Virus record (IMG/VR): IMGVR_UViG_3300022933_000008
Location: 1-49,656 of that record
From: a virus
Direction: 5' to 3' (one strand)
DNA: 49,656 bases
Positions 23,901 to 46,517 of this stretch are shown piece by piece; positions within the stretch are counted from its first letter, which is position 1; each line of letters begins with the position of its first letter. The notes beneath the pieces were generated by a model. The model saw nothing but the letters and a program-made list of their open reading frames with translations. It had not been told where the DNA came from and did not search any database. The translations under genes and the position numbers were made by a program.

Positions 23901-23931
23901 AAAAAAAAGGGGGCTTTTCAGCCCCCTTTTT
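23901..23931 (-). terminator. Rho-independent terminator after capsid gene
   Basis: Read leftward, the stem is GGGGGC with GCCCCC around a TGAAAA loop, flanked by an A run before and eight T after. It sits 31 nt past the capsid stop, the same place as the major terminator after the T7 capsid gene, and would limit expression of the tail genes relative to capsid. Confidence 0.9.
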
Positions 23932-25291: not shown

Positions 25292-26302
25292 TTATACCGG
25301 CCTGTTACGTGACGACATTATCTGTTGCGCAATTCGATCAAGATCGGTTGCTCCTTCAGGTTCCGCTGAACGCTGCGCGGCAGATTCTGTTCCGGGTGAG
25401 GAGCCAATGGAGCCGGAGAAGGCTTGTCGGCGTTCTCGCTGTGCTCGCAGTTGGACTAATTCACCTTCGGAACCTAAGTTCTTGAAGTCACGCACTACGT
25501 TTACGAGTAACTGGCCGTCAAGGAAATCTTCCATTGTGTAGCCGCGATCCTCTGCGAAGTTGACGAAGTCTTGAGCCTGCTCATCTGACATACTGAAATG
25601 CTGTTGAACTCGGTCAAGGTTATTAGAGAGTTGGCGCTGCATGTTTACAGAGTTCTGCTCTTGTGAACGCTCATTGGCTTGGGCGGCGGCTTTAACCGCG
25701 CCGTCACTGTGAGCAAGGACAGCCCTTAGCATATTCTGGGTTTCCGCATTCATCGCGGCGAGAGACGCCATTGTGCCGTTTATGTCTTTGTAGCCCGGCG
25801 GAAGCGAAGCGGAGTTCTCCTCTTCCCACTGACGGAAGACATCTTGTTGGTCTATGGCTTCGGGCTGGGTATTTTCAGGGGTGGCACCTACTGCTGCTGC
25901 GCTGGCTTGTGCTACGTTCGGGGATTCGGAAATCTCCAAAATGGCTTTGGCCAGTTGGTCTGGCGTGGTTTGGTATTTGGCTTCGAGTTGCCGGATGACT
26001 TCCATTACTGGCTTGTACTGGGCGTTTTGATAATTGAGCGCCTTGTATCTGTCCATTGTGGAAGCGATCTGCTTCTCGGTTAGGTTGCGTTCACCAATTT
26101 TGAACGTCATCGCTGGAGCATCCATTGCGTCGGTTTCATCTGCCGGGCTTGCGGAAGCAATAGCGATTTCTGCCTCTGTTGGTGTGTCCTTGTCCTGTGC
26201 TTCGGCGCTTGGTGCGGCAGTTACCGGCGGGGTTGCGGGTGCTTGCGGCTCTATGCCCATTGCTTTGGATGCGAGCGCATCTACGAGTTCATCTTGTGCC
26301 AT
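25292..26302 (-). CDS. Scaffolding protein
   Basis: A 336-residue acidic, Ala/Gln/Glu-rich protein immediately upstream of the capsid gene. It shows the usual scaffold layout: a disordered Pro/Ala N-terminus (QAPATPPVTAAPSAEAQDKD), a helical centre (EKQIASTMDRYKALNYQNAQ, then LEAKYQTTPDQLAKAILEIS), a long coiled part (ERSQEQNSVNMQRQLSNNLD) and a C-terminus with Arg (DRIAQQIMSSRNRPV) that may bind capsid. It would guide procapsid assembly and then leave. It overlaps the small gene upstream by 1 nt. Confidence 0.82.
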   Translation of the reverse strand: MAQDELVDALASKAMGIEPQAPATPPVTAAPSAEAQDKDTPTEAEIAIASASPADETDAMDAPAMTFKIGERNLTEKQIASTMDRYKALNYQNAQYKPVMEVIRQLEAKYQTTPDQLAKAILEISESPNVAQASAAAVGATPENTQPEAIDQQDVFRQWEEENSASLPPGYKDINGTMASLAAMNAETQNMLRAVLAHSDGAVKAAAQANERSQEQNSVNMQRQLSNNLDRVQQHFSMSDEQAQDFVNFAEDRGYTMEDFLDGQLLVNVVRDFKNLGSEGELVQLRAQRERRQAFSGSIGSSPGTESAAQRSAEPEGATDLDRIAQQIMSSRNRPV

Positions 26303-26568
26303 TATTTGGTCTCCATATCGGCCTTGGCGGAATTAAGAGCAACCTCCCCTTCGAGTTGTGCGTACAACTTGTTGGGTAGGTCAATCAATGTACGTGAAGC
26401 CCACATGGCCCCACGCCTGAAGTCGACTTCCTTCTCGCTCATGGATGGATTATCAGCCAACTGATATGCGGCATGGAGGACTTCTTTCTCCATGATGGCT
26501 TTCACGTAGGCCCATCCTTTCCCGTTACGGAGGGAGTCAAGTGCTTTTATAGCCTGTTCAGGTTTCAT
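26302..26568 (-). CDS. Small helical protein, hypothetical
   Basis: An 88-residue helical protein (KPEQAIKALDSLRNGKGWAY at the start, KEVDFRRGAMWASRTLIDLP in the middle). I do not recognise it with certainty; proteins of this size and pattern occur upstream of scaffold genes in marine and alphaproteobacterial phages. The ATG overlaps the HNH stop (ATGA), and AGGA lies 5 nt upstream within the HNH coding end. Probably a minor head-assembly factor by position. Confidence 0.7.
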   Translation of the reverse strand: MKPEQAIKALDSLRNGKGWAYVKAIMEKEVLHAAYQLADNPSMSEKEVDFRRGAMWASRTLIDLPNKLYAQLEGEVALNSAKADMETK

Positions 26569-27020
26569 AGTCGTCCTTTTAATACGGCGTAAGAGAGCAT
26601 GAGAACTTGCTCATCTGTGTGCTCCCCTTTCGCCATGTTATAACCCCATACAACCAAGCGCGAATTGGCCTTGGTGTACCCCTTTTTCGGATCGATTCGG
26701 TCTATTGATGGTGCGAAGAAATTAGATCGTCGATCCCCATTTCCAGAAAACTCGAAACAAAGCCCTGTCGCTTCACACCGACCAGTGTTGATTTTTTCAG
26801 CAAGCCACCTTTTATCCAGTTCAAAATTCTCAAATCTCTTCCCGCGCTTTTTCGCGCCAGAGAGTAGGTGATTGGCAAAATGCCGTATGCTTCGCGTTTT
26901 GCGGTCGTGGTACAGGCTCCTGTGATAAGCGTTGTAGCATGGTCGACAGATATGCCCCCTTGACCCACCACGATTCTTGACCGTCAATGGGGTTGAGCAC
27001 TTACGGCATAGAGCCACCAT
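26565..27020 (-). CDS. HNH endonuclease with N-terminal zinc ribbon
   Basis: A 151-residue HNH nuclease of the free-standing homing type. N-terminal CRKC and CRPC pairs form a zinc ribbon. The C-terminal half has CEATGLC, then SIDRIDPKKGYTKANSRLVV and WGYNMAKGEHTDEQ, the D-R-I-D and N-x-x-L-V and N-x-x-K positions of the HNH motif. It would nick or cut a target site and spread its own gene. It is fitted into the late operon by overlaps at both ends (20 nt with the upstream gene, 4 nt downstream). GGAG is the only ribosome site and lies inside a 12-bp hairpin (27023-27071). GTG 27023 is an alternative start. Confidence 0.85.
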   Translation of the reverse strand: MVALCRKCSTPLTVKNRGGSRGHICRPCYNAYHRSLYHDRKTRSIRHFANHLLSGAKKRGKRFENFELDKRWLAEKINTGRCEATGLCFEFSGNGDRRSNFFAPSIDRIDPKKGYTKANSRLVVWGYNMAKGEHTDEQVLMLSYAVLKGRL

Positions 27021-27345
27021 CACCGTGGTCTCCGGTTGGGGGGAGTGCGGAGGGAGGGTCGGAGACCACGGGATGGGGCATAGGATCGGCGTTGAGCACC
27101 TTTATATCGCGCACCATTGCGCGTGGGATGTACCAGAAATTGCCAAAATAGTCGCCAGATTTCTCCGGGCAGTAGGTCATCGCAAGGACAACCCACTTCT
27201 GGCTCTTTTCGACAAGCAATCCATAGGTGTAGGTTGGTTCTTCTGATGGGTCAGGCACTCCCCAGCCGGATTCTGTATAGGCGTCAAGCCAACTTATCTG
27301 TACAAGGGGATAAGGATTCTTCCCAATATTCTTCCGGGTACTCAT
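27001..27345 (-). CDS. Conserved small phage protein, hypothetical
   Basis: A 114-residue protein. The segment YPLVQISWLDAYTESGW followed by YGLLVEKSQKWVVLAMTYCP, then NFWYIPRAMVRDIKVL, resembles a frequent uncharacterised phage protein family that begins with such a V-x-W-x-D-A-x-x-x-x-G-W motif. The C-terminus (PHPVVSDPPSALPPTGDHGD) is low-complexity and encodes the arms of the HNH hairpin. The ATG at 27345 overlaps the upstream ORF by 62 nt and lacks a clear ribosome site, so coupled translation is likely. Confidence 0.7.
   Translation of the reverse strand: MSTRKNIGKNPYPLVQISWLDAYTESGWGVPDPSEEPTYTYGLLVEKSQKWVVLAMTYCPEKSGDYFGNFWYIPRAMVRDIKVLNADPMPHPVVSDPPSALPPTGDHGDGGSMP
27023..27071 (-). 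promoter_or_regulatory. Hairpin that encloses the HNH ribosome site
   Basis: Perfect 12-bp arms CCGTGGTCTCCG and CGGAGACCACGG are 25 nt apart. In the leftward mRNA the 3' arm contains GGAG, the ribosome site of the HNH gene, and ends 2 nt before its ATG. Folding would shut HNH translation. The arms lie in the coding end of the upstream gene. Confidence 0.8.
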
Positions 27346-27514
27346 GTAAGAATGTTGATACCCATCCGGGTAATTCCCCTATTGTTAGATATGCAGTGTA
27401 AGCAGATTCAATCTCCTCTTCACTAGACTCACCGAAGTTGTCGACATACGCGCGCTCGAATACTTGCCATTCAGTGCAGTCGAACAAGTTGGAGATTTCA
27501 GAGATCGTCCTCAT
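27284..27514 (-). CDS. Small acidic protein, hypothetical
   Basis: A 76-residue acidic protein rich in Glu, Tyr and Trp (TEWQVFERAYVDNFGESSEE, then LPGWVSTFLHEYPEEYWEES). The composition is unlike a chance frame, and it fills an otherwise empty stretch between the GGGACGAC element and the next gene. Its ATG lies inside a 7-bp hairpin stem at 27509-27528, with no clear ribosome site. The 62-nt overlap with the following gene lowers confidence a little. Function unknown. Confidence 0.6.
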   Translation of the reverse strand: MRTISEISNLFDCTEWQVFERAYVDNFGESSEEEIESAYTAYLTIGELPGWVSTFLHEYPEEYWEESLSPCTDKLA

Positions 27515-27528
27515 GATTCACCATGAGG
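27509..27528 (-). promoter_or_regulatory. Small hairpin over a start codon
   Basis: CCTCATG and CATGAGG arms surround ATTCAC. In leftward RNA the ATG of the 76-residue gene is in one arm. Similar in spirit to the HNH hairpin but shorter. Confidence 0.5.
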
Positions 27529-27554
27529 GTATTAGGGCATGGGAAAATCCTTTA

Positions 27555-27562
27555 GTCGTCCC
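27555..27562 (-). promoter_or_regulatory. GGGACGAC post-stop element, lipoprotein copy
   Basis: Read leftward, GGGACGAC begins 3 nt after the TAA of the lipoprotein gene. The following 45 nt lead to the start-codon hairpin of the next gene. Confidence 0.45.
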
Positions 27563-27565
27563 CTT

Positions 27566-27895
27566 TTATGCGGCTTTTTTCTTACGCTCCAAGCCATTGG
27601 GGATAAGGTATCCCATAATTAGTGGGATAATTATCACTCCGGCCAATAGCCATCCACCTGTTTCAATGACTTGCCCCATTAGTGGCCAGAAGCCGGTCAC
27701 TGGTGCGTCGCATTGGCCAATTGCTTCGGCTGTCAGGAAACTGGTCGATGCTGCTCCAACTCCAGCCCCAACCGCCGCTCCTGCGGGGCCGCCGATTAAG
27801 CCGCCGACCCCGGCTGATACAGCGGCAACGCCGCCGGTTTTTAGCGCGGCGCATCCACTAAGGATGGGGAGGGCACAGATTATTGCTTTTTGCAT
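27566..27895 (-). CDS. Small lipoprotein with glycine-zipper membrane segment
   Basis: A 109-residue protein with a short lipoprotein signal and lipobox (ALPILSGC, the cysteine near residue 15), a glycine-zipper region (GVGGLIGGPAGAAVGAGVGA), and a hydrophobic C-terminal helix (WLLAGVIIIPLIMGYLI) before a basic end. The likely place is the inner face of the outer membrane or the inner membrane. In a phage late operon this suggests a lysis factor (o-spanin or holin-like) or a superinfection-exclusion lipoprotein; I cannot tell which. A GTG at 27901 is an alternative start. It overlaps the upstream gene by 16 nt. Confidence 0.7.
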   Translation of the reverse strand: MQKAIICALPILSGCAALKTGGVAAVSAGVGGLIGGPAGAAVGAGVGAASTSFLTAEAIGQCDAPVTGFWPLMGQVIETGGWLLAGVIIIPLIMGYLIPNGLERKKKAA

Positions 27896-28092
27896 TTGCA
27901 CAAACGTAAATCGTGGTGCAATTTTTTAACGTACAGGCTTACAAAGTTAGTCATGAAGAAGGGTAAGCAAGCATGGATAAAGGAGATGAAGGAAGCCCAA
28001 GCCAATCCAAAAGAGAGTTTGGCTGCGGTAAGCCAATGTTGGGAATATGGCTTCCAGCCTTTTTCAATGTGATATGGGTCAAATATTTTCAT
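27880..28092 (-). CDS. Small membrane protein, DUF6356-like
   Basis: A 70-residue protein: MKIFDPYHIEKGWKPYSQHW, then a transmembrane stretch (AAKLSFGLAWASFISFIHAC) and LPFFMTNFVSLYV. The H-x-x-x-A ... S-x-x-x-x-I-H-A-x-L-P-F-F pattern is that of the DUF6356 family of small bacterial and phage membrane proteins. The ATG overlaps the stop of a 31-codon membrane ORF (ATGA). It belongs to a run of four to five tiny membrane or exported proteins and may take part in lysis. Confidence 0.7.
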   Translation of the reverse strand: MKIFDPYHIEKGWKPYSQHWLTAAKLSFGLAWASFISFIHACLPFFMTNFVSLYVKKLHHDLRLCKCKKQ

Positions 28093-28184
28093 AGCAGTAA
28101 GATGATGATTATGGCGAGTTCGATAACGAGGATGGTGTGGTAGGCAGACCAGATGATGTCGTAATGACGTTTTAGTTTCTTCAC
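28089..28184 (-). CDS. Hidden 31-residue membrane peptide
   Basis: A GTG start at 28184, with AGGA just upstream, opens a 31-codon frame: a basic head (KKLKRHYDIIWSAYHT) and a single hydrophobic helix (ILVIELAIIIILLL). It starts 5 nt after the stop of the upstream gene and ends in an ATGA overlap with the DUF6356-like gene. The fit between neighbours on both sides and the clear membrane helix argue for a real gene. It has the size of small holins or lysis peptides. Confidence 0.65.
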   Translation of the reverse strand: MKKLKRHYDIIWSAYHTILVIELAIIIILLL

Positions 28185-28189
28185 TGTTC

Positions 28190-28429
28190 CTACGGCTTAC
28201 TCATCAGACGTTCTTCCATCTTGTCAATCCTTGAAAGCACCCGGTCTATCGCACCGTTCAATTCTGTCCTACTAACTGATTCGGTGGCTACTTGCGTAAT
28301 TCGATCATGCAAGACTTTATCTTCCTTCATCAGGTTGTCGAACAAATAAAATATACGTTTCAAAACAAAGCCAGTTATCAAAAGCATCATGCCCAGCAAC
28401 GCATCAATCAAAATTGTCACCTCCATCAT
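28190..28429 (-). CDS. Small membrane-anchored coiled-coil protein
   Basis: A 79-residue protein with one N-terminal transmembrane helix (VTILIDALLGMMLLITGFVL) followed by a charged coiled coil (LFDNLMKEDKVLHDRITQVA, then DRVLSRIDKMEERLMS). The layout resembles i-spanins or XhlA-like haemolysin/holin partners. The start ATG overlaps the upstream stop (ACATGATGG). It is a candidate lysis protein by topology and neighbourhood only. Confidence 0.72.
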   Translation of the reverse strand: MMEVTILIDALLGMMLLITGFVLKRIFYLFDNLMKEDKVLHDRITQVATESVSRTELNGAIDRVLSRIDKMEERLMSKP

Positions 28430-39928: not shown

Positions 39929-39951
39929 GGTTAAGGGTCTTTTGTCGTCCC
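39929..39951 (-). promoter_or_regulatory. GGGACGAC post-stop element, terminase copy
   Basis: Read leftward: 1 nt after the terminase TAA comes GGGACGAC, 6 nt later CCCTTAACC. Same words and same spacing as the copy after the capsid gene (23936-23958). It stands before the portal ATG. Confidence 0.5.
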
Positions 39952-45877: not shown

Positions 45878-46112
45878 CGACAAACTGTACAACCTCGTAA
45901 TTGCCAGAAAGATCACACTTGTTACCACCATTCAGATCGAGGGCACGAGCGAGGAGTCAGCGGTGGCGAGGTTCCAACACCAACTTGAATCAGGTGAGTG
46001 CAGCGCGCTCGACGACATGAGTATGTGGGGTGAGTGCGTTCACTACCAAGTCTTTAAAGGCGACCCTCATGAGGATGAGTATGAGGTTATTGATGTGGAG
46101 GTGGACGAATGA
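45870..46112 (+). CDS. Small acidic protein, hypothetical, possible paralogue of neighbour
   Basis: An 80-residue protein with the same design as its neighbour: YNLVIARKITLVTTIQIEGT, then SEESAVARFQHQLESGECSA, and an acidic end (YEVIDVEVDE). The I-x-I-E-G-T-S-E-E-S-A-V-A match to I-E-V-E-A-x-D-E-D-E-A suggests duplication. It overlaps both neighbours by 8 and 4 nt. Function unknown. Confidence 0.74.
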   Translation: MSDDKLYNLVIARKITLVTTIQIEGTSEESAVARFQHQLESGECSALDDMSMWGECVHYQVFKGDPHEDEYEVIDVEVDE

Positions 46113-46456
46113 GCAGATTCTACGGAACTGTGCAGGGGAGTCGAGGCCAAGCCACGAGATGCGGTAACAATGGCTCAGGTATTACGACTGAAGCGGCCGC
46201 GTGGGGTGGGTGTATCGAAGTTCAGGTGCATGAAGACCTTTTCGATCCGAAATGGGATCGCTTTGTAATACGTATGATGCCGTGGCAAAGCAATGGTGAT
46301 GCGATTCTAATCGCCACCGGAACTATCGGGGATAGTGATTCGATCAGGATAGAGGACACTCTACTCAAGCGCGTGATCGAACGGGAAAAGAAGGAACACC
46401 CGCTCGTTATAGAAGAAACAACCGATGACTGGGACGAGTACGAAAAGACCGGCTAA
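46109..46456 (+). CDS. Conserved MSRFYG-type small protein
   Basis: A 115-residue protein beginning MSRFYGTVQGSRGQATRCGN with ...GSGITTEAAAWGGCIEVQVH. This start is a recurring signature of an uncharacterised family common in phages and mobile elements. The second half (WDRFVIRMMPWQSNGDAILI, then EDTLLKRVIEREKKEHPLVI) is less conserved. Last gene of the ATGA-coupled operon, followed by a hairpin and a terminator. Confidence 0.82.
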   Translation: MSRFYGTVQGSRGQATRCGNNGSGITTEAAAWGGCIEVQVHEDLFDPKWDRFVIRMMPWQSNGDAILIATGTIGDSDSIRIEDTLLKRVIEREKKEHPLVIEETTDDWDEYEKTG

Positions 46457-46462
46457 TAACCA

Positions 46463-46499
46463 CCCATAACTACTACTAAGTAGTAGTAGTAGTTATGGG
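46463..46499 (+). repeat. 15-bp perfect inverted repeat with GTA repeats
   Basis: CCCATAACTACTACT and its complement flank a 7-nt loop. The arms carry ACT/AGT triplet runs, and in the plus RNA the 3' arm gives tandem TAG words. It has no T tract of its own. It could be an RNase III site, an mRNA end stabiliser or a binding site. Confidence 0.7.
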
Positions 46500-46517
46500 A
46501 GGTTAGTCCAAGGAGAT

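Follow-up and report, generated by a model that had tools for sequence, protein, structure and literature searches.

The endonuclease I-TevI of phage T4 is a GIY-YIG enzyme. Hairpins that hide the ribosome-binding site are known for I-TevI and for other T4-type homing endonuclease genes, namely segB and Aeh1 mobE (PMC2988022, PMC3014915). In the long transcripts of the intron-encoded T4 genes I-TevI, I-TevII and I-TevIII, the Shine-Dalgarno (SD) sequence is sequestered (PMC2988022, PMC3014915) and translation escapes by way of late promoters; for I-TevI, the late promoter gives a transcript in which the structure lacks its 5' part (PMC2988022). Aeh1 mobE and T4 segB are free-standing phage endonuclease genes whose SD is paired in a stable predicted hairpin, and late promoters belong to their arrangement. 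Other T4-type genes start within the upstream gene: segC, mobA and mobC do so with overlaps of 20, 23 and 24 bp, and T4 mobE has a UAAUGA overlap for which coupling by termination and reinitiation was suggested, coupling in T4 itself having been inferred (PMC2988022). Coupling by RNA unfolding, in which upstream ribosomes open a hairpin over the downstream ribosome-binding site, has been established for the MS2 coat/lysis, f1 VII/IX and E. coli rpmI/rplT gene pairs (PMC12548453).

At the marine phage locus described here, a predicted hairpin over the SD and an overlap with the preceding gene were both found within one upstream reading frame. Each of these is already known alone; their presence in a single frame is a variant, and in the open-access papers searched no description was found of an endonuclease gene with this combination, conserved at the nucleotide level. 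The gene concerned is, like Aeh1 mobE, an HNH gene and, like mobE and segB, it has its SD paired in a stable predicted hairpin; in contrast to both, the hairpin lies wholly in the upstream frame, and no sigma-70-like promoter was found in 26400-28200. Sequestration of the SD in long transcripts is predicted here as for the three I-Tev genes, whereas the present gene has no intron and is proposed to escape through ribosomes that translate the gene before it. The overlap of 20-23 bp is close to those of segC, mobA and mobC, and for these genes and T4 mobE a hairpin in the upstream frame is not described in PMC2988022. The opening proposed here resembles that of the MS2, f1 and rpmI/rplT pairs, whose downstream genes, unlike the present one, are not nucleases.

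The window, that is, the whole analysed stretch of 49,656 bases, is a virus record whose coat protein has Roseobacter phage CRP-810 as its nearest phage record (66%). On the minus strand, the genes are arranged in the order 111-aa gene, 76-aa gene (27284-27514), upstream gene of 114 aa (up114, 27001-27345), HNH nuclease gene (26565-27020, 151 aa counted from the ATG), 88-aa gene (26302-26568), probable scaffold gene (25292-26302, named by position) and coat gene. The 76-aa, up114, HNH and 88-aa genes each overlap the next: the 76-aa gene shares 62 nt with up114, up114 and the HNH gene share 20 nt from the ATG or 23 nt from the GTG, and the start of the 88-aa gene overlaps the HNH stop (ATGA). 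Elsewhere in the window, a 22-nt inverted repeat, 95% complementary, was seen at 46457-46505, directly after the gene at 46109-46456.

The HNH gene product gave a PHROG endonuclease match (8e-23), and no HNH model was matched in the Pfam search. Its predicted structure (pLDDT 88) had as best fold match PacI (3ldy, E 2.7e-4), an HNH restriction endonuclease with 18% identity to the phage protein, in which a Tyr is thought to act as the general base (PMC4081073). The residues D107, R108, Y115, N119 and N128 were invariant across ten HNH homologues, and the Asp-Arg, Tyr and Asn positions are common to the phage protein and PacI. Profile match, predicted fold of the beta-beta-alpha-metal type and HNH-type catalytic residues support the assignment of the product as a putative HNH nuclease.

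The 12-bp arms claimed in the initial annotation were found to be exact: CCGTGGTCTCCG (27023-27034, plus strand) and CGGAGACCACGG (27060-27071) are complementary at every position and stand 25 nt apart. When the leftward mRNA was folded, the stem proved to be longer than claimed, with 20 bp predicted across 27013-27079, the extension consisting of GCC and CCAUC paired to GAUGG and GGC. According to folding and pair counts, the 5' strand of the extended hairpin (GCCCCAUCCCGUGGUCUCCG, 27060-27079, minus strand) is made of up114 codons, and the 3' strand (CGGAGACCACGGUGAUGGUGGC, 27013-27034, minus strand) carries one-base bulges at 27022 and 27016; between them lies a C-rich loop (ACCCUCCCUCCGCACUCCCCCCAAC, 27035-27059, minus strand), delimited from the alignment of three phages. 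The region 26990-27100 folded at -43 kcal/mol, and none of 200 shuffled sequences (-27.4 +/- 3.2; z -4.9) reached this value. Among 45 translation starts, the region of the hairpin was the most stable (-37.9 versus a mean of -15.9). The second most stable start region of the window is made by a terminator-like inverted repeat, AAAAAGGGGGCT/AGCCCCCTTTTT, at 23904-23931, between the coat gene and the following gene.

In a shuffled window, 0.15 perfect inverted repeats of 12 bp with a loop of 3-60 would be expected, so the length of the arms is by itself only moderately unusual. When up114 was recoded synonymously with its protein kept, equal stability was obtained in 0.06% of trials (p=0.0006). 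From its position, the stem extension and this recoding test, a chance origin of the predicted hairpin appears unlikely. No known RNA family was matched by the element in Rfam, and a Rho-independent terminator was rejected, as the T run is missing after the stem. A second copy of the element was found neither elsewhere in the window nor at the other loci compared; in viral contigs it was present only in the two relatives discussed below (L001 and L019), and no copy was found in bacterial genomes. The 17-mer GGAGACCACGGTGATGG also matched two unrelated contigs (L014 and L016).

The list of HNH-frame starts gave two candidates, GTG (27023-27021) and ATG (27020-27018), together covering 27018-27023 on the minus strand, and it bore out the GGAG of the 3' arm (27030-27033, minus strand) as the sole SD-like run before them. 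The 2 nt to the start given in the initial annotation separate the end of the arm from the ATG; GGAG itself stands 9 nt from the ATG and 6 nt from the in-frame GTG. GGAG, GUG (27023) and AUG (27020) are all inside the predicted stem; in a 545-nt context, the probability of GGAG being unpaired was 0.00, and the AUG was likewise paired. The initial annotation had further located the hairpin in the coding end of the gene upstream, which was borne out: the up114 frame, with its stop at 27001-27003, covers both strands and hence the structure over the downstream start.

The hairpin is carried by the last 25 codons of up114 (27081-27004, minus strand), referred to here as the tail. The tail was of low confidence in the AlphaFold model, behind a small beta-barrel core, and is probably disordered. 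The core (27082-27345) showed weak likeness to Hfq/Sm and SH3-like folds, with a VIA Z of about 6, which is below the trustworthy level. Members of the up114 family occur commonly in contigs of marine viruses; no match was obtained in Pfam or PHROG or in a search of genome contigs, and phage records gave a single weak match, Pelagibacter phage HTVC034P (30%). In about two dozen up114 homologues without the HNH gene, the 25-codon tail and the arms were absent. This agrees with the suggestion that relatives lacking HNH would lack the arms, but it is a weak test of it, since identity to these homologues does not exceed about 50% and they end about 10 residues past the core, so that the whole tail is missing.

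The same gene order with HNH and hairpin was found in the viral contigs L001 and L019. Protein identity to the window was 81% (up114) and 64% (HNH) in L001, and 64% and 46% in L019. At the nucleotide level, the 71-nt element was 96% identical in L001 and 86% in L019, compared with 76% and 61% for the up114 core and 61% and 52% for the HNH gene. At four-fold sites, 16/17 positions of the tail were identical in L001 against 15/33 of the core, and in L019 15/17 against 8/24; the amino acids of the tail were conserved as well. The identity of the element and of its four-fold sites argues for selection on the nucleotides, or for very local transfer. The loop differed from that of the window by one or two bases in L001 and, except for the stem-closing base, not at all in L019.

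The predicted L019 stem is 19 bp. Its CCAUC/GAUGG is replaced by CCGCC/GGCGG, i.e., two adjacent both-sided changes, together with two changes from G-C to G-U wobbles and a bulge shifted by one base. When the L019 changes were placed at random, an equally stable fold was obtained in 1.6% of trials. In L001, the 12-bp arm contains one C.A and one A.C mismatch, and the changes were unremarkable (p 0.15). Over the three sequences, the number of both-sided changes did not beat a column-shuffle control (57/500 reached the count), while slid registers gave none or one both-sided pair. Taken together, the pair changes in the three phages support a structure, short of proof. No such hairpins were seen in distant HNH homologues.

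SD and start are paired in a predicted stable hairpin in the window and in L001, which has the same two start codons (GTG and ATG); in L019, GGAG is paired and the annotated HNH start is not. This L019 start and the up114 stop overlap in UAAUGA, the arrangement of T4 mobE; the start lies 25 nt beyond GGAG-AUG, mostly unpaired and outside the stem. L019 also has, at 563-601, the sequence GGAG-AUC-AUG, where a short frame of 12 codons begins that takes in the annotated HNH start (588). Either the HNH start of L019 was relocated, or the contig carries a one-base assembly error, in which case the HNH gene would be in frame with the GGAG-AUG at 563; alternatively, by analogy, L019 may be coupled by termination and reinitiation, and its hairpin may have another role. 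A frameshift fusion from up114 to HNH was tried as well, the HNH frame being open for 28 codons upstream and CCCCCCA looking slippery. It was rejected: the HNH gene of L019 is in another frame relative to up114 and its ATG is directly preceded by a stop codon, which rules out a conserved frameshift fusion.

We consider it somewhat more probable than otherwise that the up114 tail serves as a translational gate for the HNH gene, opened by translation of up114. In free mRNA, the 20-bp hairpin would pair the HNH SD and starts and so block ribosome loading. A ribosome translating up114 would cross both strands of the hairpin and halt about 15 nt beyond the HNH AUG; in doing so it would push the 5' strand aside, so that GGAG and AUG would be exposed and a new ribosome could load. 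Alternatively, the up114 ribosome itself might reinitiate within the 20-23 nt overlap. HNH output would thus be low and tied to up114 translation. The idea that a ribosome on the upstream gene could open the hairpin held in silico in part: with a modelled ribosome in the 5' strand, the probability of GGAG being unpaired rose from 0.00 to about 0.4-0.6. The opening is only partial because C-rich stretches of the loop, the presumed partner, can still pair with GGAG. The conserved C-rich loop is the main feature that the gate model alone leaves over, and the L001 mismatches and the L019 start outside the stem count against a simple gate.

The loop bears most directly on the possibility that the element acts mainly in another way, as a protein-binding site or as an mRNA processing or stability element, with the HNH start affected incidentally. 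Near-invariance at the synonymous sites of the loop would be needless for a pure stem, and L019 retains the hairpin though its annotated HNH start is outside it. The predicted small beta barrel of the up114 core, with its Hfq/Sm and SH3-like likeness, would even allow the speculative form in which the up114 protein autoregulates the operon by binding to the loop. That likeness, however, is under the trustworthy level of the tool, the element matched no known RNA family, and in 2/3 phages the 3' strand holds exactly GGAG and both starts; we regard this explanation as unlikely. It is very unlikely that the element was conserved merely through recent local recombination, its pairing having no role in expression. 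Only three sequences are known and the phage group does recombine, as the stretch shared by L001 and its relative L022 stops abruptly at the three-gene block described below, but the exchange would have to be limited to about 70 nt between a strongly diverged up114 core and HNH gene, and the L019 differences are positioned to preserve the stem.

A hairpin arising as an accident of the amino-acid sequence, in a functional proline-rich tail, would fit the expectation for perfect 12-bp arms in shuffled windows and the conservation of the tail amino acids. Against it stand the four-fold sites, the synonymous recoding result, the location at the sole SD-like run of the next gene and the low-confidence, probably disordered tail, and we hold such an accident to be highly improbable. 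Scarcely more can be expected of an escape as in T4, in which the hairpin would silence early read-through and a late promoter near or inside the 5' strand would give a hairpin-free transcript. Such a promoter controls I-TevI, and similar setups were reported for segB and Aeh1 mobE (PMC2988022); here, the scan for the sigma-70 consensus came out empty, though a phage-specific promoter might have escaped it. The statement in the initial annotation that the gene is silenced in the same manner as I-TevI was accordingly not upheld, as the escape proposed in the gate model is upstream translation and not a late promoter.

L001 and L019 have the HNH gene, whereas it was missing from the other coat-bearing relatives compared, many of which are partial contigs. 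In L022, which lacks HNH, both neighbouring genes are missing too: L022 and L001 share a stretch of 95% identity that ends with the 111-aa gene, after which the 76-aa/up114/HNH block is missing in L022. This patchy presence is the sole pointer to a selfish nature of the HNH gene, and it is a hint.

The block is flanked by AAAGGGACGACTA, at 26568-26580 and 27553-27565 in the window (one mismatch per copy) and at 418-430 and 1398-1410 in L001 (exact). Its reading as a direct repeat left by an insertion was dropped, as GGGACGAC recurs after stop codons in these phages. On the minus strand of the window, GGGACGAC is found at 39951, 27562, 25291 and 23958, immediately or a few bases after the stop codons of the terminase-like, 111-aa, scaffold and coat genes, and it also stands behind the coat genes of relatives, including CRP-810; a similar sequence, GGACGACTATG, sits before 26568. 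GGGACGAC may serve this phage group as a promoter or as a processing signal.

A bolder extension of the gate model would be that the HNH gene moves together with a nucleotide-conserved gate of ~71 nt of its own, and that upon insertion this gate was turned into the in-frame tail of the gene before it; translation of the host gene would then be the switch of the nuclease, and the C-rich loop would be a further signal, perhaps read by the up114 protein. We consider this decidedly unlikely. As to the gate itself, a hairpin over the ribosome-binding site and a gene overlap appear to be combined in one short element that was kept while the nuclease diverged to about half identity. If the gate model is true, the locus would provide a compact and testable case, outside the T4 group, of a nuclease gene gated by the translation of its neighbour, and the conserved loop would hint at a signal beyond the simple model.
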